Source of the DNA: Pelosinus fermentans DSM 17108
GTDB taxonomy: Bacteria; Bacillota; Negativicutes; DSM-13327
Length of the DNA: 64,000 nt
Direction: 5' to 3'
Assembly: GCF_000271485.2 (NCBI RefSeq)
Contig: NZ_AKVN02000001.1
Span: forward strand, 2,877,501-2,941,500
The position numbers and the translations under genes were made by a program. The notes beneath the pieces are model-generated. The model saw only the letters and a program-made list of their open reading frames with translations. It was not told the origin of the DNA and ran no database searches. Position 1 is the first letter of the stretch, and each line of letters begins with the position of its first letter. Shown here piece by piece: positions 13,945 to 23,620 of the stretch.

Positions 13945-14919
13945 TTATGTGATTGACTTAGTACGCTCTTTTTTAGAGACAACGATTCTTTGCAGTACAA
14001 TAAACAAACAGAGTAGAAATGCAACAGCAATTTTAGTCCACCAGGAACTTAGTGTGCCCTGGAACATGATTAGTGTTTGGATTACTCCTTGGATCAAAAC
14101 TCCAAAAAGCGTTCCTGTGACAAATCCGACTCCGCCTGTTAAAGGTGTTCCACCGATAACAGCAGATGCGATCGCATCCATTTCTAATCCCATGGCATGT
14201 AGTCCATAGCCTGAAAGCATATAAAAACTAAACACAACCCCTGACAGGGCAGAGCAAAATCCACTTAGACCATACACCAGCACTTTTGTCCTGCCAACTG
14301 GCAGTCCCATCAGCATTGCCGATTGTGCATTGCCGCCAATAGCATATACGGCACGCCCAAATCTAGTATAATTGCTAAGATATAATGCTGCTGCCACTAA
14401 CACGAGAGCGATAATAACACTAATTGAAATATAATTATCAAAAGGCAAGGGTATTCGATAAGTAGCGACAAATAGATAGAAGGGATTAGTAATCATAATA
14501 GTATCAATACTAATTACATAGCATAATCCCCTAGCTAAAAACATACCTGCAAGAGTTACAATAAAAGGCTGTATCGTAAAAAAATGAATAAAACTACCTT
14601 GCACAAGACCAAAGAGAAATCCCATAAGCAGCATTAGAGGTATGACAACCATAGCGCTAAGGTGCTGCATTTCCAGTAAATATGCTGATAGCATACATAC
14701 TAACGCAATTACGGAACCCACAGAAATATCAATTCCGCCAATAATAAGTACAAAGGTCATACCAATTGCTGTAATAATCAGAAAGGCATTATCAATTAGC
14801 ATATTGAGCAATACTTGTGTGGAAAAAAAGCCATTATACAAGACGGAGCCCGCTGCAAATAACGCAAAAAACAATACAACCGTAATCATCAGGTTGATGT
14901 ATTTATAACTTAGCTGCAT
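13945..14919 (-). CDS. yjfF: Furanose-type sugar ABC transporter permease (YjfF-like)
   Basis: A roughly 324-residue permease of the ribose/galactofuranose class with about 8-10 hydrophobic helices and the family loop IGMTFVLIIGGIDISVGSVIAL. It aligns from its first residues with E. coli YjfF (LMIT, DNAFL, GMTFV, GGIDxSVGSV). The start is set at 14919, where AGGTG lies 6 bases upstream; a GTG three codons earlier, with AGGGGG upstream, is equally possible. A longer frame reaching 15030 lies inside the upstream gene and is unlikely. It overlaps the preceding permease gene by 17 bases. It is the last gene of the operon; the two permeases probably form a heterodimeric channel. Confidence 0.9.
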   Translation of the reverse strand: MQLSYKYINLMITVVLFFALFAAGSVLYNGFFSTQVLLNMLIDNAFLIITAIGMTFVLIIGGIDISVGSVIALVCMLSAYLLEMQHLSAMVVIPLMLLMGFLFGLVQGSFIHFFTIQPFIVTLAGMFLARGLCYVISIDTIMITNPFYLFVATYRIPLPFDNYISISVIIALVLVAAALYLSNYTRFGRAVYAIGGNAQSAMLMGLPVGRTKVLVYGLSGFCSALSGVVFSFYMLSGYGLHAMGLEMDAIASAVIGGTPLTGGVGFVTGTLFGVLIQGVIQTLIMFQGTLSSWWTKIAVAFLLCLFIVLQRIVVSKKERTKSIT

Positions 14920-15985
14920 TTTTTTCACCTGGAATCCCCCTCTTTTGAGTCCATTTAGAAAATACAATTTTTCGAAAATTAGCAGATTGCAGCAGACATA
15001 TGATAATGACAACAACGGATTTAACCACAAGTGTAATCTCTGGCGGTACTCCTAATGCATAAATTGTTGTTGTAATACTTTGAATAACTAATGCCCCTAT
15101 CAGGCTGCCGACCAAAGAAAATCGACCACCGTCCAGAGAATTCCCTCCAAGAGAAACTGCTAAAATAGCATCGAGCTCGATAAATAATCCTGCATTATTT
15201 CCATCGGCTGAACTTACATTGGAACAGATAATAAGTCCTGCCAAGCCAGCACACAAGCCGGAGAAGGCATAGACAGAAAAGATGTATTTACTCACATTGA
15301 TTCCTGCAAACCTGCTCGCAACGGCATTAATTCCTATCGATTCAATAAACAGACCTAAGGCTGTCTTTCGTACTGCATAAAAGGTAATACCGAAAACCAA
15401 CCCTACAAGAAAGAGAGAAAAAGGCAATCCCAATATATATCCAGTGCCAATGAATTGGAACGGTTTATAATATACAGTAATAATTTGCCCTTGAGTAATC
15501 AGCTGGGCGATTCCCCGACCAGCAACCAGTAGAATCAGCGTGGCAACAATTGGCTGAATTCCTACTTTAGAAATTAATAATCCATTCCACATCCCTAAAA
15601 GAGTGGTAACCAAAAGAGCAGTAAATATGGCAACAGGCATGGGAACAAGTGTAACAAGTGTTTTTACGCCATCGACATATTCTAGCTCACCACCAATTAG
15701 CGAAGCTGCTACCGCTCCAGAAATAGCAATCATCGACCCTACAGATATATCAATTCCTTTTGTCGCAATGACCAAAGTCATACCAATAGCGAGCAGCATC
15801 AAAGGTGCAGCACGATTCAAAATATCAATCGTAACTCCATAGAAGTGTCCATCTTTCATTTCAATCGCGAAAAAATCTTTCGTAAAAAAGAAATTGAAAA
15901 GCAATACAATAATCAATGCCGCTAAAGGCCAACAGAGTCTAGAACTCGTAAATCGATTCCAAGTAGACTGTATTTTCTCCATCAT
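14903..15985 (-). CDS. ytfT: Furanose-type sugar ABC transporter permease (YtfT-like)
   Basis: A 360-residue permease matching E. coli YtfT: KDGHFYGVTIDILNRAAPLMLLAIGMTLVIATKGIDISVGS is recognisable in pieces, including DILNRAAP and GMTLVIAT. It has about ten hydrophobic helices and the typical ASRFAGINVSKYIFSVYAFSG region. It starts 2 bases after the ATPase gene and overlaps the second permease gene. In E. coli the homologous system imports galactofuranose. Here arabinose genes lie downstream of the regulatory unit, so arabinofuranose is another candidate. Confidence 0.92.
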   Translation of the reverse strand: MMEKIQSTWNRFTSSRLCWPLAALIIVLLFNFFFTKDFFAIEMKDGHFYGVTIDILNRAAPLMLLAIGMTLVIATKGIDISVGSMIAISGAVAASLIGGELEYVDGVKTLVTLVPMPVAIFTALLVTTLLGMWNGLLISKVGIQPIVATLILLVAGRGIAQLITQGQIITVYYKPFQFIGTGYILGLPFSLFLVGLVFGITFYAVRKTALGLFIESIGINAVASRFAGINVSKYIFSVYAFSGLCAGLAGLIICSNVSSADGNNAGLFIELDAILAVSLGGNSLDGGRFSLVGSLIGALVIQSITTTIYALGVPPEITLVVKSVVVIIICLLQSANFRKIVFSKWTQKRGIPGEKNAAKL

Positions 15986-15986
15986 C

Positions 15987-17498
15987 CTACACCCCTGCTA
16001 TCGTCTGCATAATATATTTTTCTTCCATCTCTTCACCCGAAATCTCTGCTATCTTTACTCTGTCTCTTAAAACTGCCATACGGCTGGAGCACCGAACCGA
16101 TTCATCCAGCTCCGAAGAAATAAATACAACGGACATGCCCGTTTCTGCCAGAGACAGTATTAATTTTTGAATCTCAACTTTAGCACCTACATCAATCCCC
16201 CGTGTAGGCTCATCCAGTATTAAAAGCTTAGGTTCTGTCAGCAGCCATCTAGCTAATATTACTTTTTGCTGATTGCCTCCGCTTAAATTTTTGATTAGTT
16301 GTTCTGGTCCAGCGGTCTTAATATTTAATAATTCAATATATTTTTTTGAAATCTCTTCTTGTCTTCTCTTCGGTATATATTTCATCCACCCTACTTTAGC
16401 CTGTAACGCCAAAACGATATTTTCTCTTACAGAAAGGTTTTCGATAATCCCTTCTGTTTTTCTATTTTCGGAACAATATGCCAGACCATATTGAATTGCA
16501 TCAGCAGGGCTTTGTATGGTAACAGTTTGTCCTTCAATGGCAATTTCTCCGCTATCGGCTTTGTCAATACCAAAAATAGTGCGGGCAACTTCTGTTCGCC
16601 CTGATCCCAATAAACCTACCAGGCCAAGCACTTCACCTTTGCCAATTTCAAGATCAAAGGGATGGATCGATCCTTTGTGTCCAAGACCGCGAACTCGCAA
16701 AAAATTATTACGTTTTTCTTGAAGAATATCCAGTTTCAATGTCTTGCAGCTGCTTTCAAATCCATCAAAGGCTTTGCCAATCATTTTTGCAATCAGCTGA
16801 ACACGAGGCAGATTTACAGTCTCATAGGAACCAACTAATTCACCATTACGTAATATGGTAATCTTATCGGAGATCGCATAAACTTGCTCAATAAAATGAG
16901 TCACAAAAATAATTCCTAAACCTTGCTTTTTTAATTTACGCATGAGTCCAAAGAGTTTTTCAACTTCTTGAGCATCCAGGCTCGAAGTCGGTTCATCCAA
17001 TATCAAAACTTTAGCCGATATGTCAAGGGCTCTTGCAATCGCTACCATTTGCTGTATTGCAACAGAGTAACGCTCTAAAGGCTGAGTAACATCAATCGCA
17101 AGACTCAACTTCGCCAATAGCTCCTGTGATCTCCGATTCATTTCCTGCCAATCAATACTGCCAAAGCGCAATGGTTCTCTGCCAATAAAAATATTTTCAG
17201 CAACTGACAAATTGGCACAAAGATTAACCTCTTGATAAACTGTACTAATTCCTAGTTGTTGGGCATGATGAGGAGAATTCGGTGCAATGGCTTTACCGTC
17301 TAAAAAGATAGCTCCAGCATCGAGACGATCAACACCCGTCAACACTTTAATCAAAGTCGATTTACCAGCTCCATTTTCTCCCATTAAACAGTGAATCTCT
17401 CCAGGTTTCAGTTCGAATTCTACATTATTAAGAGCTTTAACCCCCGGGAAATCTTTACAAATCCCCATTGCTTTTAATAGAAAATTTGCATTATCCAT
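15987..17498 (-). CDS. ytfR: Sugar ABC transporter ATP-binding protein (YtfR-like, two ATPase domains)
   Basis: A 503-residue double-ATPase of the RbsA/MglA class. The first domain has an intact Walker A (GENGAGKST) and Walker B (VLILDEPTSSLD). The second has the usual degenerate P-loop (GLLGSGRTE), with signature LSGGNQQK and [12 protein letters not shown]. The start at 17498 is chosen because GGAGGTG lies 9 bases upstream; an ATG 6 codons earlier forms part of that site. It lies between the binding-protein gene and the two permease genes, with a stem-loop in the intercistronic gap. Confidence 0.93.
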   Translation of the reverse strand: MDNANFLLKAMGICKDFPGVKALNNVEFELKPGEIHCLMGENGAGKSTLIKVLTGVDRLDAGAIFLDGKAIAPNSPHHAQQLGISTVYQEVNLCANLSVAENIFIGREPLRFGSIDWQEMNRRSQELLAKLSLAIDVTQPLERYSVAIQQMVAIARALDISAKVLILDEPTSSLDAQEVEKLFGLMRKLKKQGLGIIFVTHFIEQVYAISDKITILRNGELVGSYETVNLPRVQLIAKMIGKAFDGFESSCKTLKLDILQEKRNNFLRVRGLGHKGSIHPFDLEIGKGEVLGLVGLLGSGRTEVARTIFGIDKADSGEIAIEGQTVTIQSPADAIQYGLAYCSENRKTEGIIENLSVRENIVLALQAKVGWMKYIPKRRQEEISKKYIELLNIKTAGPEQLIKNLSGGNQQKVILARWLLTEPKLLILDEPTRGIDVGAKVEIQKLILSLAETGMSVVFISSELDESVRCSSRMAVLRDRVKIAEISGEEMEEKYIMQTIAGV

Positions 17499-17554
17499 TA
17501 TTACTTTCACCTCCATAAATCAGTAGTTCGATAAAAGAAAAACCCACTCCATCA

Positions 17555-17635: not shown

Positions 17636-18643
17636 TTAGTATTTACGATTTGGCAATTCCTTGGCAGCAACATCTGCAGGGAATACACCTTCTTTTGTAA
17701 CAATCCGTTTATCAAGGGTCTTACCTGCTACCAAATCTTTCGCAGCTGTCATCAATTGGTCTCCCAGTAGTGGGCTGCACTCAATGGTTGCATTTAATTT
17801 CCCTGCAATCATGGCCTCGAAAGCCCCTTTAACACCATCAATTGAAACAATAATTATGTCTTTTCCAGGTTTTAGCCCAGCTTCTTCAATTGCTTGAATC
17901 GCACCAATTGCCATATCATCATTATGGGCATATAATACATCGATTTTTTGTCCATCAGCCTTGGCTGATTTCAAGAATGATTCCATCACTTCTTTCCCCT
18001 TGGCACGTGTAAAGTCGCCAGTTTGCGACTTAATAACTTTATAATTCGCATGTTGTTTTAAGATTTCTTCAAAACCAGCTTTACGATCAATCGCGGGTGC
18101 GGAACCAACGGTTCCTTGCAATTCGACAATATTTACAGCCTCATTATCCTTTTTCATGAAATCGACCAGCCATTTACCAGCTCGTCTTCCTTCTTCCACA
18201 AAATCAGAACCCATAAAGGTAACATAATAATCTTCTGCATTGCCACTGCTCATTTTAATGGACCGATCTGTTAAAATCACAGGTATCTTAGCAGCTTTTG
18301 CTTCTTGCAGTACAGCATCCCAGCCTGTTTCTACAACAGGCGAAAAAGCAATTACATCAACCTTTTGCTGTATAAATGACCGTAAGGCCTTTATCTGGTT
18401 TTCTTGCTTTTGCTGAGCATCCGAAAACTTTAGTTCAATGCCAGCTGCTTGTGCCGATGCTTTTATGGATTCCGTATTTGCTGTGCGCCATTCACTTTCT
18501 GCACCGATCTGTGAGAATCCCAGAACGATTTTTTTGTCTGCAGGTTTAGCCGCCGTTTCCTGCTTGGTGCCTGAACAGCCTGCCAATGTTAACATCATAA
18601 TTCCAACACTCAACGCAATCGTAACCTTTTTCCACTTGGACAT
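17636..18643 (-). CDS. ytfQ: Furanose-binding lipoprotein of the ABC transporter (YtfQ-like)
   Basis: A 335-residue solute-binding lipoprotein. The N-terminus is a signal peptide with lipobox LAGC and lipid-bearing Cys23. The mature part is a type-1 periplasmic binding fold that matches E. coli YtfQ in several places: GFSQIGAESEWR, DAQQKQENQIKALRSF, SPVVETGW, ELQGTVGSAPAIDRK and AHNDDMAIGAI. AAGGAGG precedes the start. It is the first gene of ytfQ-ytfR-ytfT-yjfF. It is also strikingly similar to the second half of the tandem binding protein at 18768-20633, so one probably arose by duplication of the other. Confidence 0.95.
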   Translation of the reverse strand: MSKWKKVTIALSVGIMMLTLAGCSGTKQETAAKPADKKIVLGFSQIGAESEWRTANTESIKASAQAAGIELKFSDAQQKQENQIKALRSFIQQKVDVIAFSPVVETGWDAVLQEAKAAKIPVILTDRSIKMSSGNAEDYYVTFMGSDFVEEGRRAGKWLVDFMKKDNEAVNIVELQGTVGSAPAIDRKAGFEEILKQHANYKVIKSQTGDFTRAKGKEVMESFLKSAKADGQKIDVLYAHNDDMAIGAIQAIEEAGLKPGKDIIIVSIDGVKGAFEAMIAGKLNATIECSPLLGDQLMTAAKDLVAGKTLDKRIVTKEGVFPADVAAKELPNRKY

Positions 18644-18687: not shown

Positions 18688-18693
18688 ATTATA
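18688..18693 (-). promoter_or_regulatory. Consensus -10 element before ytfQ without a recognisable -35
   Basis: TATAAT on the minus strand lies 45 bases before the ytfQ start codon. No TTGACA-like hexamer occurs 16-18 bases upstream, which is typical of promoters that need an activator. The YesN-type regulator encoded just upstream is the likely activator. Confidence 0.45.
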
Positions 18694-18767
18694 GGATGGT
18701 AATGTTTGTTCGTATTTAGAATAATCAGTAATTTCTTATACTTTTCCGAACTGTTTTAACATAATGC

Positions 18768-20633
18768 TTAGTACCTGCGATTCAGATAATCCTGCCGCGC
18801 TGTTTCTGCAGAAAATACACCCTCAGAAGTAATAATCCTCATTGGCAGCTGCCGTCCTGCCATCAAACTTTTTACCGCCTGCATAAGCTGAGGACCAAGA
18901 AGGGGATTACACTCCACAGTACTGTTTAACTTACCTGCCATCATCGCTTTAAAGGCCGCTGCTGTAGCATCAACAGAGACAATCAGAATATCCTTGCCCG
19001 GTCTAAGTCCATATTCCTCAATCGCCTTGATAGCGCCGAGAGCCATATCATCATTATGAGCATAAACAACATGAATTTGATTGCCATATATGGCTAAAGC
19101 AGCTTTCATCATATCTTGCCCGCCAACCTCGGTAAAATCGCCAGATGCAGAATAAATCACTTGAAATTGAGGATAATTAGCAATAATTTCAGCAAATCCT
19201 TTTTTGCGGTCAATGGCTGGTGCCGAATCAATTGTTCCTTCCAATTCAATAACATTGACTGATTGACTAGCTATTTTTTTTTCTACAAGCCAGCGGGCGG
19301 CTCTGCGCCCTTCTTCCAGAAAATCGCTGCCAATAAAAGTGGCATACAACGAATTATCATCAGGTTTAATCGCTCGATCGGATAAAAGAACAGGAATTTC
19401 CGCCATTTTGGCTTCTTCCAATACTTCGTCCCAACCCCCTTCTACAACAGGAGAAAAAGCAATTACATCCACCCCTTGGGTGATGAATGATCGAATGGCT
19501 TGAATCTGCTTTTCCTGTTTTTGATCGGCCTCCAGAAAAACAAGATCAATGCCTGCCTCTAATGCCGCATTCTTTATGGATTGAGAATTTGCTCTACGCC
19601 AATCGCTCTCCGCTCCAAGCTGAGAAAATCCCAATACAATTTTTTTGCTGCGATTTTCTTTTCTAGGTTCATTCGCTGCTTTTAAATATTCCAACACATT
19701 GTAACGGGTAATTTTATTGCTCCGAGGGATGATCTTCTTTGGTATTCCTTTCTCATGATTTAAAATATCAACAGCATATAAAATAGCCTCTCGTCCACCT
19801 GTCAGACAAGTAAACGTCCCTTCTAAGATACCTTCTTCTACCAATTGCAATCCCCCATTAGGGCCCGAAAAACCGTCAACACCAACAAACTGTATCCCAT
19901 CGGCTCCATGCTTCTTGGCAGCCTTATAAGCCCCCAGCGCCATGTAGTCGCTATGAGCGAAAACAACATCAATTTTAGGATACTGCTGCAGCAATTTTTC
20001 CATTTCATCTTCTGCTTTATCTCTTTGCCAATCGGCAATTACGGTTGCAACGATTTTAATATTGTTATACTGTCCCAGGACTTCCCGAAATCCAGCACTT
20101 CTTTCTCTAAGGGAAGGCAATCCTGCTGGTCCCTGAATCTCTACAACATTTCCCCCATTTCGTAAAAGATCTGCGATGTATTGCCCCGCTTCTTTGCCAA
20201 GGGATTTATTATCCGGTCCGATATATAACGTGTACGCATATCCTTCCACAGCTCGATCCAATACAATGACTGGAATCTTTTTGTAAGCCTTCGCTACAAT
20301 TGGTGTCAGCTCCGCAGAATCATTGGGTGAAATAATTAATAAATCAATCCCCGCTTCTAACAATTCTTCTACATCTCGAATCTGCTTGCCACTGTTTTGC
20401 ACAGCATCGGTAAAAACAATCTTAACATCTGGGTGCTTTAGTACTTCTTCTTTGATTTCCTCATTCATAATCACTCTCCAAGGCTCAATCAAATTGGCTT
20501 GGGATACACCAATTACAAACTTCACCTGATCGGAGCCTGCTGCTTGGTTTGATGGATGATAACATCCTGTAAGTATTGTCACAATCATCAGAAGAACGAT
20601 CATATTCAGCTTGACTTTAAACACCCCGCTCAC
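18768..20633 (-). CDS. Fused double sugar-binding lipoprotein, probable sensor for the YesMN pair
   Basis: A 621-residue lipoprotein (lipobox LTGC, Cys24) made of two complete periplasmic binding domains in a row: about residues 35-325 and 333-621. The second half is nearly a copy of YtfQ (GFSQLGAESDWRRAN, ADQKQEKQIQAIRSF, SPVVEGGW, AHNDDMALGAI, ending LNRRY versus LPNRKY). The first is a more distant relative (GVSQANLIEPWR, AHSDYMALGAY). It starts with a GTG overlapping the response-regulator stop by 4 bases, so it is co-translated with the two-component genes rather than with the transporter. Detection of sugar for the YesM kinase is the likely role. A binding protein with two fused ligand domains is unusual. 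Confidence 0.88.
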   Translation of the reverse strand: MSGVFKVKLNMIVLLMIVTILTGCYHPSNQAAGSDQVKFVIGVSQANLIEPWRVIMNEEIKEEVLKHPDVKIVFTDAVQNSGKQIRDVEELLEAGIDLLIISPNDSAELTPIVAKAYKKIPVIVLDRAVEGYAYTLYIGPDNKSLGKEAGQYIADLLRNGGNVVEIQGPAGLPSLRERSAGFREVLGQYNNIKIVATVIADWQRDKAEDEMEKLLQQYPKIDVVFAHSDYMALGAYKAAKKHGADGIQFVGVDGFSGPNGGLQLVEEGILEGTFTCLTGGREAILYAVDILNHEKGIPKKIIPRSNKITRYNVLEYLKAANEPRKENRSKKIVLGFSQLGAESDWRRANSQSIKNAALEAGIDLVFLEADQKQEKQIQAIRSFITQGVDVIAFSPVVEGGWDEVLEEAKMAEIPVLLSDRAIKPDDNSLYATFIGSDFLEEGRRAARWLVEKKIASQSVNVIELEGTIDSAPAIDRKKGFAEIIANYPQFQVIYSASGDFTEVGGQDMMKAALAIYGNQIHVVYAHNDDMALGAIKAIEEYGLRPGKDILIVSVDATAAAFKAMMAGKLNSTVECNPLLGPQLMQAVKSLMAGRQLPMRIITSEGVFSAETARQDYLNRRY

Positions 20634-21841
20634 CGCCAGTTGCCTTTTTTGCGATATTCCGCTGGAGATAATCCAACTACTTTTTTAAATGTATTACTAA
20701 AATAATGTTGATTACTATACCCTACTTTTTCTGCCACTTCATATAGTTTCATCGTAGGATCTCCCATCATTTGAATGGCTTTTTCGATTCTCACCTGAGT
20801 TAAATATTCAATGAAAGAAACACCAATTTCATTTTTTAACAAGCGACTTAAATACGTAGGGCTAATCTTAATAATTTCTGCTAGATTCTGAAGTGAGAAA
20901 TCCTCCTTGCAGTAATTAGCTTCTATGTGTTTTTGTGAAAGAAGCACTGCAGGAGTATAACTAACCTTGCGGTTTAGTTCTAAGGTCAGTTCATGATAAA
21001 CAGCGGAAACACCCCTTAGCAAATCCATTAGCGGGTGCTGAGCAACAATTACGACTTGTTCTAAATGCTGCTCAATAACCTGCTGTAAAGTAGCACTCAG
21101 TTTATACCAGTCGCTTGGATTTAGGAGGGGTGTTATCGCAATCAGATTATCTGCTCTGTCATGAAACATAATATAAGGCTGCCATTGCTCTAATAATTCC
21201 ACACAAATATTTTCTATGGAAAATACCAGCAATTCCCGCTCCCAATCTTTGAGAAGCTGCCCTCTGGTGTACTGGCCAGCCACTTTCAGAGCAATCATTC
21301 CAGATGCTGGCGACAAATCCAATTCCAAAAAAGCAAGCTGAGACCTTATGTATTCCTCACTTAATTGACCATTTACCCAATCTTTACAGAAAGCTTCCCT
21401 TAATAACGGCAAATGTTTTTTTGTTTCCTGATTAGTCCAATTCAGATAATGATTTTGCAGACGAGAATTCAGCAATTGCTGTGCTGCTCGTTTTAACACG
21501 GTTTCCAGTTGGTCTTCAAAGACAGGTTTTAATAAATAATCAAAGACTTGCAGCTTAATCGCTTTATGGGCATAGGAAAACTCATCATGTCCAGTAATGA
21601 CAATGATGATGCAATCTTGTAATATGCTGTTTACTTGTTCTATAAACTGCAATCCATTTAAAAAAGGCATACAAATATCTACTAGCAGAATGTCTGGCAG
21701 GGTTTTTCTCGCCACTTCCAAAGCTATTTCTCCATCTTCAGCCTCCCCCACAACCTCCATATCAAGCCTTGCTTTCTCAACCAGGCTTTTGAGGCCACGA
21801 CGAATTTTAGGTTCATCATCGATGATTACTACTTTCAACAT
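20630..21841 (-). CDS. YesN-type response regulator with AraC DNA-binding domain
   Basis: A 403-residue regulator. The receiver domain has D8-D9, the phospho-acceptor D55 (LLVDICMPF) and the conserved Lys in LLKPVFED. A middle linker of about 170 residues follows. The last 100 residues carry two AraC-type helix-turn-helix units (LAEIIKISPTYLSRLLK and VAEKVGYSNQHYFSNTFKK). Such regulators usually activate adjacent sugar transporter operons. It is encoded 15 bases after the kinase gene and overlaps the tandem binding protein gene. The ytfQ promoter is the expected target. Confidence 0.94.
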   Translation of the reverse strand: MLKVVIIDDEPKIRRGLKSLVEKARLDMEVVGEAEDGEIALEVARKTLPDILLVDICMPFLNGLQFIEQVNSILQDCIIIVITGHDEFSYAHKAIKLQVFDYLLKPVFEDQLETVLKRAAQQLLNSRLQNHYLNWTNQETKKHLPLLREAFCKDWVNGQLSEEYIRSQLAFLELDLSPASGMIALKVAGQYTRGQLLKDWERELLVFSIENICVELLEQWQPYIMFHDRADNLIAITPLLNPSDWYKLSATLQQVIEQHLEQVVIVAQHPLMDLLRGVSAVYHELTLELNRKVSYTPAVLLSQKHIEANYCKEDFSLQNLAEIIKISPTYLSRLLKNEIGVSFIEYLTQVRIEKAIQMMGDPTMKLYEVAEKVGYSNQHYFSNTFKKVVGLSPAEYRKKGNWR

Positions 21842-21856
21842 TGAACCACTCCCTAA

Positions 21857-23620
21857 TTAACGTATTGGATGCCAAACTTCTACCTTCGTACCTTCCTGAT
21901 CCACGCTGGTATATTGTAAACCGTATTCTGAGCCAAAGGATAATCGAATTCGTTCATTCACATTAAAAATACCAAAGCCCGTTCTTGCTGCCTCTCCATG
22001 CTGACTGTCTAATGATTTTCTTAATTCTGCGAGTTTTTCCGCTGTCATTCCTATGCCGTCATCTGCTACGCTAAAATATAATTTCTCCTTGTCCATGCGA
22101 GCGGTGATCTTGATGGTACCGCCCCCTCTTTTTGCATTAATGCCATGGTAAATCGCATTTTCAACAAGAGGCTGCAATATGAGCTTAAGCACTCTGTAAT
22201 TCAATATTTCTTCTTCATAGTTGATTTCATATATCAATTTATCTTCATAGCGAGCTTTCTGAATCATTAAATAACTGCGAACATGTTCTAATTCTTCATG
22301 AACAGGAATCATCTCTTTCCCTTTGCTTAAACCAATGCGAAATAAATTCGCAAGTGCACCCACAATACGAACGACTTCCTGTGCACCATGCTCCCCAGCC
22401 ATCCACTGAATCGTATAAAGAGTATTATAAAGAAAGTGTGGTTTTATTTGGGCCTGCAAGGTTTTCAGCTCTGCTTCTCGTTTGCGTTTTTGTTCCGTAT
22501 ACACCATGTCCACCAAATTGCTAATTTCTTTGATCATCGTGTTAAAGCTATTACCAAGCTGTCCGATTTCATCATTATATTTACTGTTAAATCGTACGCT
22601 CAGATCGCCTTCCTCAGCCTTCTTCATCAAGCTGCGGAGTTTACCTAAAGGCTTGGCAATGGAAGCAGTAAAAAAGAAGGCGGCGATTACTGCCAGTATT
22701 AAGGTAACAAGCCCAATCAGTATGGAGTAATGACGCAGAATCGTTACCTCTTTCAGTGTCTCACTAAGGGAAAAAACACCGATAGTTTTCCATTTTGTAT
22801 ACGCTGAATCTTTATAGATAATCTGAAACTCACTGCCTTGAATGATTTTTACAATACTATTGGCAGAATGGTTAAGCCACTCACTTTTTACGCGATATAC
22901 AATCGGATTAACTGGTGCATAAACAATGCCACCATTTGCATCCATAATATATAAAAATCCATTCTTACCTAATGTAATCGTCTCAATTACTTCTTTGAAT
23001 TTAGCCAATTTCAGATCAATCAGTATGACGCCAAGATACTGGCTGTTCTTGGGATCAACAACCGCCTTAGCAATCGAAACCACTTCATCAGCGCTATAGT
23101 TAAGAGTTGTCGTTATATTACGGCCAATCGGTTTACTAAACAGCTGCATTGCATTTGGCGATGCAATCGCTCTTTTGTACCAAGTCTCATCAGTAAGGGG
23201 ATCACGTGAAATACGATGCATTTCATTGCTAATATAAAGATTATTCTCATTTACAATGAGTATTCCGGCAATCTCTGGATGTACATTCGTGTAGGTTCTT
23301 AAGATTCGCCGAACCTCATTATTCAGCGATTCATCTTCATCTCCCTCTTTCATAGTTCGTAAGAACGCAATAATCTGAGGATCACCCAAAAGGTAAGACA
23401 CGATATTTTCCATATCATGAATATAAAACTCAACATTGCGAGTGACTTGCTCAATCATTTGTCCAGTATGCTCATTGGCCTGTTCTTCAATCGATTTGCT
23501 ATAGATGACATTACCCAATACTCCGAGTGTAACAATGGGCAATAAAATGAGAGTGAAAAAATATAATAACAATTTAGAACGAATATTTTCGGTCTTAAGT
23601 AATTTACGAAAGAATTCCAA
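21857..23620 (-). CDS. YesM-type sensor histidine kinase
   Basis: A 587-residue membrane kinase. A first membrane helix (about 18-40) precedes an extracytoplasmic Cache-like sensor region (to about 290), a second helix, a HAMP linker (KPLGKLRSLMKKAEEGDLSVRF), and a His_kinase domain with the phospho-site QIKPHFLYNTL. The ATP-binding end has QPLVENAIYHGI and GIGMTAEKL. The gene starts with TTG, with AGGATGG 7 bases upstream. It is the first gene of kinase - regulator - double binding protein. The signal probably comes from the binding protein docking on the Cache region, which is inference. Confidence 0.94.
   Translation of the reverse strand: MEFFRKLLKTENIRSKLLLYFFTLILLPIVTLGVLGNVIYSKSIEEQANEHTGQMIEQVTRNVEFYIHDMENIVSYLLGDPQIIAFLRTMKEGDEDESLNNEVRRILRTYTNVHPEIAGILIVNENNLYISNEMHRISRDPLTDETWYKRAIASPNAMQLFSKPIGRNITTTLNYSADEVVSIAKAVVDPKNSQYLGVILIDLKLAKFKEVIETITLGKNGFLYIMDANGGIVYAPVNPIVYRVKSEWLNHSANSIVKIIQGSEFQIIYKDSAYTKWKTIGVFSLSETLKEVTILRHYSILIGLVTLILAVIAAFFFTASIAKPLGKLRSLMKKAEEGDLSVRFNSKYNDEIGQLGNSFNTMIKEISNLVDMVYTEQKRKREAELKTLQAQIKPHFLYNTLYTIQWMAGEHGAQEVVRIVGALANLFRIGLSKGKEMIPVHEELEHVRSYLMIQKARYEDKLIYEINYEEEILNYRVLKLILQPLVENAIYHGINAKRGGGTIKITARMDKEKLYFSVADDGIGMTAEKLAELRKSLDSQHGEAARTGFGIFNVNERIRLSFGSEYGLQYTSVDQEGTKVEVWHPIR

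Follow-up and report, generated by a model that had tools for sequence, protein, structure and literature searches.

What use would a bacterium have for a lipoprotein that joins two complete sugar-binding domains in one chain, when its gene is tied to a sensor kinase and a response regulator and when an importer provided with a binding protein of its own stands next to it? The question is raised by the window analysed here, a stretch of 64,000 nucleotides from Pelosinus fermentans DSM 17108, where the following features are relevant.

18768..20633, minus strand: double sugar-binding lipoprotein, 621 aa (open reading frame with Pfam, orthologues and AlphaFold2 model)
20562..20633, minus strand: signal peptide with lipobox LTGC, Cys24 (sequence)
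19653..20546, minus strand: N-half binding domain, residues 30-327, BT1754-like (2x7x match and conservation)
19641..19670, minus strand: short linker joining the halves, about residues 322-331 (domain alignment)
18771..19643, minus strand: C-half binding domain, residues 331-621, GafA/YtfQ-like (6hbd and 2vk2 matches, residues)
20630..21841, minus strand: response regulator, REC and AraC-type HTH, YesN type (Pfam)
21857..23620, minus strand: sensor histidine kinase, LytS/YesM type, with dCache_1 and HAMP (Pfam)
22706..23533, minus strand: extracytoplasmic dCache sensor of the kinase (AlphaFold2 model, structural match)
18712..18740, minus strand: candidate regulator site, the 29-bp element TATAAGAAATTACTGATTATTCTAAATAC (one occurrence in the genome, kept ahead of ytfQ in relatives)
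18688..18693, minus strand: TATAAT, likely -10 of the ytfQ promoter (sequence, conserved in relatives)
17636..18643, minus strand: YtfQ, transporter binding protein (best NCBIfam match YtfQ, below its cutoff)
15987..17516, minus strand: YtfR, ABC ATPase (best NCBIfam match YtfR, below its cutoff)
14903..15985, minus strand: YtfT permease (named from its place in the operon, without a family-model match)
13945..15030, minus strand: YjfF permease (NCBIfam PRK11618.1, above cutoff)

The gene of the double protein begins with GTG and its frame is open end to end. A frame break between the halves was looked for and none was found: the frame is intact in all eight Pelosinus genomes (78-98% identity to the copy in the window), which rules out an artefact of this kind. 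The original prediction of one lipoprotein with two complete binding domains therefore stands, with a single open frame of 621 codons, a lipobox and two Peripla_BP_4 stretches (Pfam, E 1.9e-93). The start at 20633 shares four nucleotides (GTGA) with the TGA stop of the response regulator gene, upstream of which sits the kinase gene (Pfam: His_kinase, HATPase, HAMP and dCache_1). This overlap had been correctly seen; the accompanying view that the gene is set apart from a transporter has to be given up, as ytfQRT-yjfF follows in the same orientation after 124 nt, with a candidate promoter of its own. As listed, the frame of yjfF has a TTG start and overlaps ytfT by 128 nt, and its true start is probably internal. 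Further upstream are found a ROK regulator, a GguB/GguA/ChvE importer and L-arabinose isomerase, together with a class II aldolase-family gene, an FGGY kinase and an aldose epimerase, a set of genes which points to L-arabinose and perhaps D-galactose.

The double chain is made of two complete, dissimilar type-I binding domains, anchored in the membrane, and Pfam finds no permease domain within its frame. The nearest solved relative of the N-half is the sensor domain of BT1754 (PDB 2x7x, E 4.7e-60), also among the best Foldseek matches, while the C-half matches 6hbd (E 7.5e-95) and, as a structure, 2vk2, 6hbd, 6hbm and 5ocp at Z 40-42 (41.9 for 2vk2). The AlphaFold2 model (pLDDT 90.8, pTM 0.86, for two equal domains) suggests that the halves hold a defined mutual orientation. 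Against the GafA/YtfQ equivalog NF041827 the double protein scores 407.7 bits, below the cutoff of 510, and the adjacent YtfQ itself scores 378.8. Among its relatives the N-terminus shows a lipobox in some and a hydrophobic helix in others, with one sequence truncated; this sorting of anchors follows a simple pattern, and several of the rows labelled as helix still show a cysteine.

We may now ask where the second half came from. It had been understood as a near copy of the adjacent YtfQ, a view that does not survive comparison: the two are only 59% identical, as against 60-64% between the C-half and proteobacterial YtfQs, and in the tree all transporter YtfQs form one clade (support 99), outside of which the C-halves fall. 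This equal identity and the tree rule out a recent duplication of the adjacent ytfQ. The fusion is therefore old, and the C-half belongs to an old sensor lineage rather than being a copy of a local gene; a single clade of all C-halves is not rejected (p-AU 0.55). When importer binding proteins are used as the outgroup, in a quick tree where supports are moderate, loci from Paenibacillus that carry the N-half alone branch first and similar loci from Clostridium are nested among the doubles, so that one or a few fusions followed by several losses fit best. A single-domain sensor would thus have given rise to the fusion in one or very few events, the C-half being later lost or decayed in several lineages.

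How common is this arrangement? Within the class, 17 of 380 genomes carry the double protein, 16 of them along nearly the whole query: besides the genus Pelosinus, nine further genomes have it, eight with a whole copy at 60-71% identity and one with a copy cut by the end of a contig. A survey seeded with an alignment of the N-half, which covers C-only partners of such kinases only in part, kept 80 loci. The C-half follows the N-half in frame in 65 of them, distributed among Clostridia, Negativicutes, Bacilli and Spirochaetia, and a kinase, a regulator or both are nearby in 62 of these 65. The remaining three are a locus on a 3.4-kb contig (L127), another at a contig edge (L149) and L151, where none was recognised. 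In this last locus (L151:5914-9743) the double gene comes close after a ytfT-like frame, without recognised YjfF, kinase or regulator, an arrangement which is a deletion or an assembly fault. The double form had been thought not to be a standard arrangement; among related loci the reverse is true, and for this protein family we did not encounter many genomes that use the fusion as a simple part of a transporter. Two further loci may be recorded beside ytf operons: one has a kinase-regulator pair with a single binding protein that matches the N-half at only 27% identity along part of its length (L079:16058-17026), and in the other such a pair adjoins two unlabelled frames (L080:2282-4579).

The N-half stands alone in the other 15 loci (11 Clostridium loci with ytf genes, three from Paenibacillaceae and one other), all of them with both kinase and regulator nearby. 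Since the Clostridium loci have the ytf importer and no C-half, a furanose site is no strict requirement next to this importer. N-halves of doubles and singles differ mainly at P103, D289, G296 and R304, and three of these four positions lie near the C-terminal end of the N-half, before the linker.

The same 17 of 380 genomes of the class that carry the double protein, and no others, give scores above 370 bits with a profile of the kinase sensor; in no other genome does the score exceed 95. Kinase and double protein are a tight partnership, and the proposed tie to a pair of the YesM/YesN type is borne out both by gene order and by this co-occurrence. Response regulator genes adjoin nearly all the weaker matches of the sensor profile (66-94 bits), near which no binding protein of the N family was found in the class. 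Several of these weaker dCache kinases (L189-L195 and L197) have, with their regulator gene, an unlabelled frame (roughly 340-395 aa) immediately ahead of the kinase, and may represent another family of binding-protein sensors.

To understand what the two halves may bind, we compared their sites with that of GafA, whose binding-site residues are identical in three GafA proteins, with discussion of the mycobacterial Glu28 and Asp105 (PMC10191376). The numbering below is that of GafA (Glu28, Asp105 and so on), unless that of the window (residues of its double protein) is stated. For site positions beyond the residues of the GafA study and the equivalent core, we assumed the layout of a type-I site as it is generally understood. 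It had been suggested that retention of ligand residues be checked in both halves, and sugar-site residues are indeed retained in both. In the C-half, E28, R32, D105, R106, R163, N213, D241, E260 and C261 are invariant in 62 of 62 aligned sequences, a conservation equal to that of transporter YtfQs; in the numbering of the window the ligand residues are E342, W345, R346, W401, D419, R420, R476, N527, D555, E574 and C575. Judged by these residues, the C-half should bind L-arabinofuranose, D-galactofuranose or both. In the N-half, W31, R32, D105, R106, R163 and D241 are kept in 72-77 of 77 sequences and N or S is present at position 213 in 75 of 77 (the core being W52, R53, D126, R127, R178, S228, D229 and D253 in the window). 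It is devoid of E28, W87 and E260, so that its specificity should differ from that of the C-half type. Its sugar was sought via the neighbours of the Paenibacillus loci that carry it alone, and none could be named there: the importer genes are RbsA/XylG-like and ribose-permease-like, below cutoff, and the hydrolases nearby differ from one locus to another.

Since the C-half retains the ligand site of YtfQ and the ytf operon adjoins the gene, the double protein might be seen as a second substrate-binding component of the importer, a feeder of high capacity or broad specificity for which the vicinity of the kinase is incidental. A precedent of sorts exists in another double binding protein (L075:8488-10272 and L076:5341-7122), about 31% identical to that of the window, whose gene comes directly after genes for an ABC ATPase and permease, with no kinase or regulator found nearby; tandem binding domains are thus used outside the double-sensor family. 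Incidental vicinity, however, accounts poorly for a gene that overlaps that of the regulator and co-occurs exactly with the kinase, or for single-N loci that retain both signalling genes. Moreover, most doubles already have a dedicated YtfQ beside them, and positions conserved in the transporter YtfQs (Q370, K372, N375, Q496, K506, E510, F512 and K514, in the numbering of the window) are relaxed in the C-halves. We hold this feeder role to be very improbable.

The opposite simplification would make of the C-half a mainly structural piece, which serves to place the N-half on the kinase or to keep together a dimer-like assembly, its ligand site adding little to signalling. Two spirochaete loci placed beside ChvE-GguA(B) could be read in this way: their C-half is still fused although it has lost R32, D105, R106, N213, D241, E260 and C261, and it retains a patch, EEGRRAxRW (L153:4585-6324 and L156:7935-9683). 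The N-half of these proteins keeps W31, R32, R106, R163, N213 and D241, with Asn at 105, and no ytf gene was seen on the available contigs. A ChvE-like nature of these C-halves is unsupported: they align weakly to YtfQ (24-26%) and their site is lost. The fixed orientation suggested by the pTM of the model would suit a structural role, as would the existence of gene sets that manage without any C-half. Ligand residues that are invariant in the 62 other C-halves, just as in transporter YtfQs, would nevertheless be unexpected in the absence of binding, and there is very little chance, in our judgement, that the second site is of so little consequence.

Which half faces the kinase can be approached through the singles, which keep the N-half with the same kinase and regulator, and through the distances between kinase sensors, which follow the N-half (partial r 0.65) more than the C-half (0.39) or YtfQ (0.01), an excess of N over C that is weak, being seen in 89.5% of subsamples. 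For these two reasons we take the N-half as the probable kinase-facing module. The sensor of the kinase is itself a complete dCache fold (AlphaFold2 pLDDT 87.3; tandem CACHE 6mni at Z 20.8); LuxQ is not among the 50 structural matches listed for it, although a similarity may exist. A kinase so equipped might answer a ligand of its own dCache domain, with the double protein only modulating its sensitivity, in the way CuaSR without CuaD still weakly senses cellobiose (PMC10384115). Yet no kinase sensor of such similarity was found in the class without the double protein, and we consider this division of labour unlikely.

As for the output, the 29-bp element is the best candidate for the site of the regulator. 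It is found once in the 5-Mb genome at up to three mismatches. In Pelosinus and several other Negativicutes it recurs ahead of ytfQ, conserved between flanks that vary; TATAAT stands 18 nt after it. The regulator would probably activate ytfQRT-yjfF through this candidate element.

We can therefore understand the locus, probably, as a three-component system of the XylFII-LytS/CuaDSR type, an extracytoplasmic sugar sensor whose input protein has two sites. An anchored double chain is inherited together with a dCache kinase and a regulator of AraC type that belong to it; beside them lies a furanose importer of the GafA/YtfQ type, and the C-half of the chain keeps the ligand residues of the importer family. 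The two spirochaete loci beside a different importer, where the C-half has lost most of these residues and the N-half has kept most of its core, are a natural experiment in favour of this reading. The N-half would contact the dCache domain of the kinase, and the C-half would add a second site with the specificity of the importer itself, for L-Araf, D-Galf or both; binding of sugar would change the assembly of N-half, C-half and kinase, upon which the kinase would phosphorylate the regulator, and the phosphorylated regulator would activate ytfQRT-yjfF via the candidate element. It is conceivable, and we put this forward only tentatively, that the device integrates two inputs: two ligands, or a furanose and another ring form of the same sugar, would occupy the two halves, a single kinase reading their combination after a binding domain of the type of the new importer was added to an older single-domain sensor.

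The consequences are of some interest. The double sensor looks widespread in anaerobic bacteria of two phyla, yet it appears undescribed: full-text searches yielded no account of a two-domain sensor of this kind, and absence there is not proof. Natural losses of the C-half inside a single genus, together with the decay of its sugar site beside another importer, make the question of two sites for one kinase directly testable. The double protein is also a ready sensor part for the furanose sugars of plant biomass.

How does this setup compare with those already known? Binding proteins act on the sensors of kinases in XylFII-LytS, TorT-TorS and LuxP-LuxQ (PMC6321045), and CuaD binds CuaS, which the transporter binding protein CuaA does not (PMC10384115). 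As in XylFII-LytS and CuaD-CuaS-CuaR of the Firmicutes, we find here an anchored signalling binding protein, separate from the YtfQ of the importer and encoded with a kinase of LytS/YesM type and an AraC-type regulator, beside the importer thought to be controlled. In those systems, however, the binding protein has a single domain, whereas here two dissimilar domains are fused and the sensor of the kinase is a dCache. Known kinase-feeding binding proteins are single-domain, and the two-domain version is conserved in three classes of Bacillota and in Spirochaetota. With BT1754 of Bacteroides (2x7x), a hybrid two-component system that senses fructose, the N-half shares the nature of a sensory type-I binding domain; in BT1754 the domain lies within the chain of the kinase, while here three separate genes are involved and the anchored protein has a second domain. 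That second domain shares its fold and the tested ligand residues with the furanose-binding proteins GafA and YtfQ (2vk2, 5ocp, 6hbd), but these feed an ABC importer, whereas the C-half follows a sensor domain in one chain and falls outside the clade of transporter YtfQs. Two binding domains in tandem with a short linker are also found in GlnPQ, where they belong to a transporter with a fused permease, a domain that the double protein does not have; the tandem domains of GlnPQ are reported to bind independently, without cooperativity (PMC8025302), which calls for caution before cooperativity is assumed in the double protein. Finally, as in LuxP-LuxQ and TorT-TorS, the binding protein would act on the extracytoplasmic domain of a kinase, but in those two systems it is single-domain, and both its ligand and the regulatory output differ.
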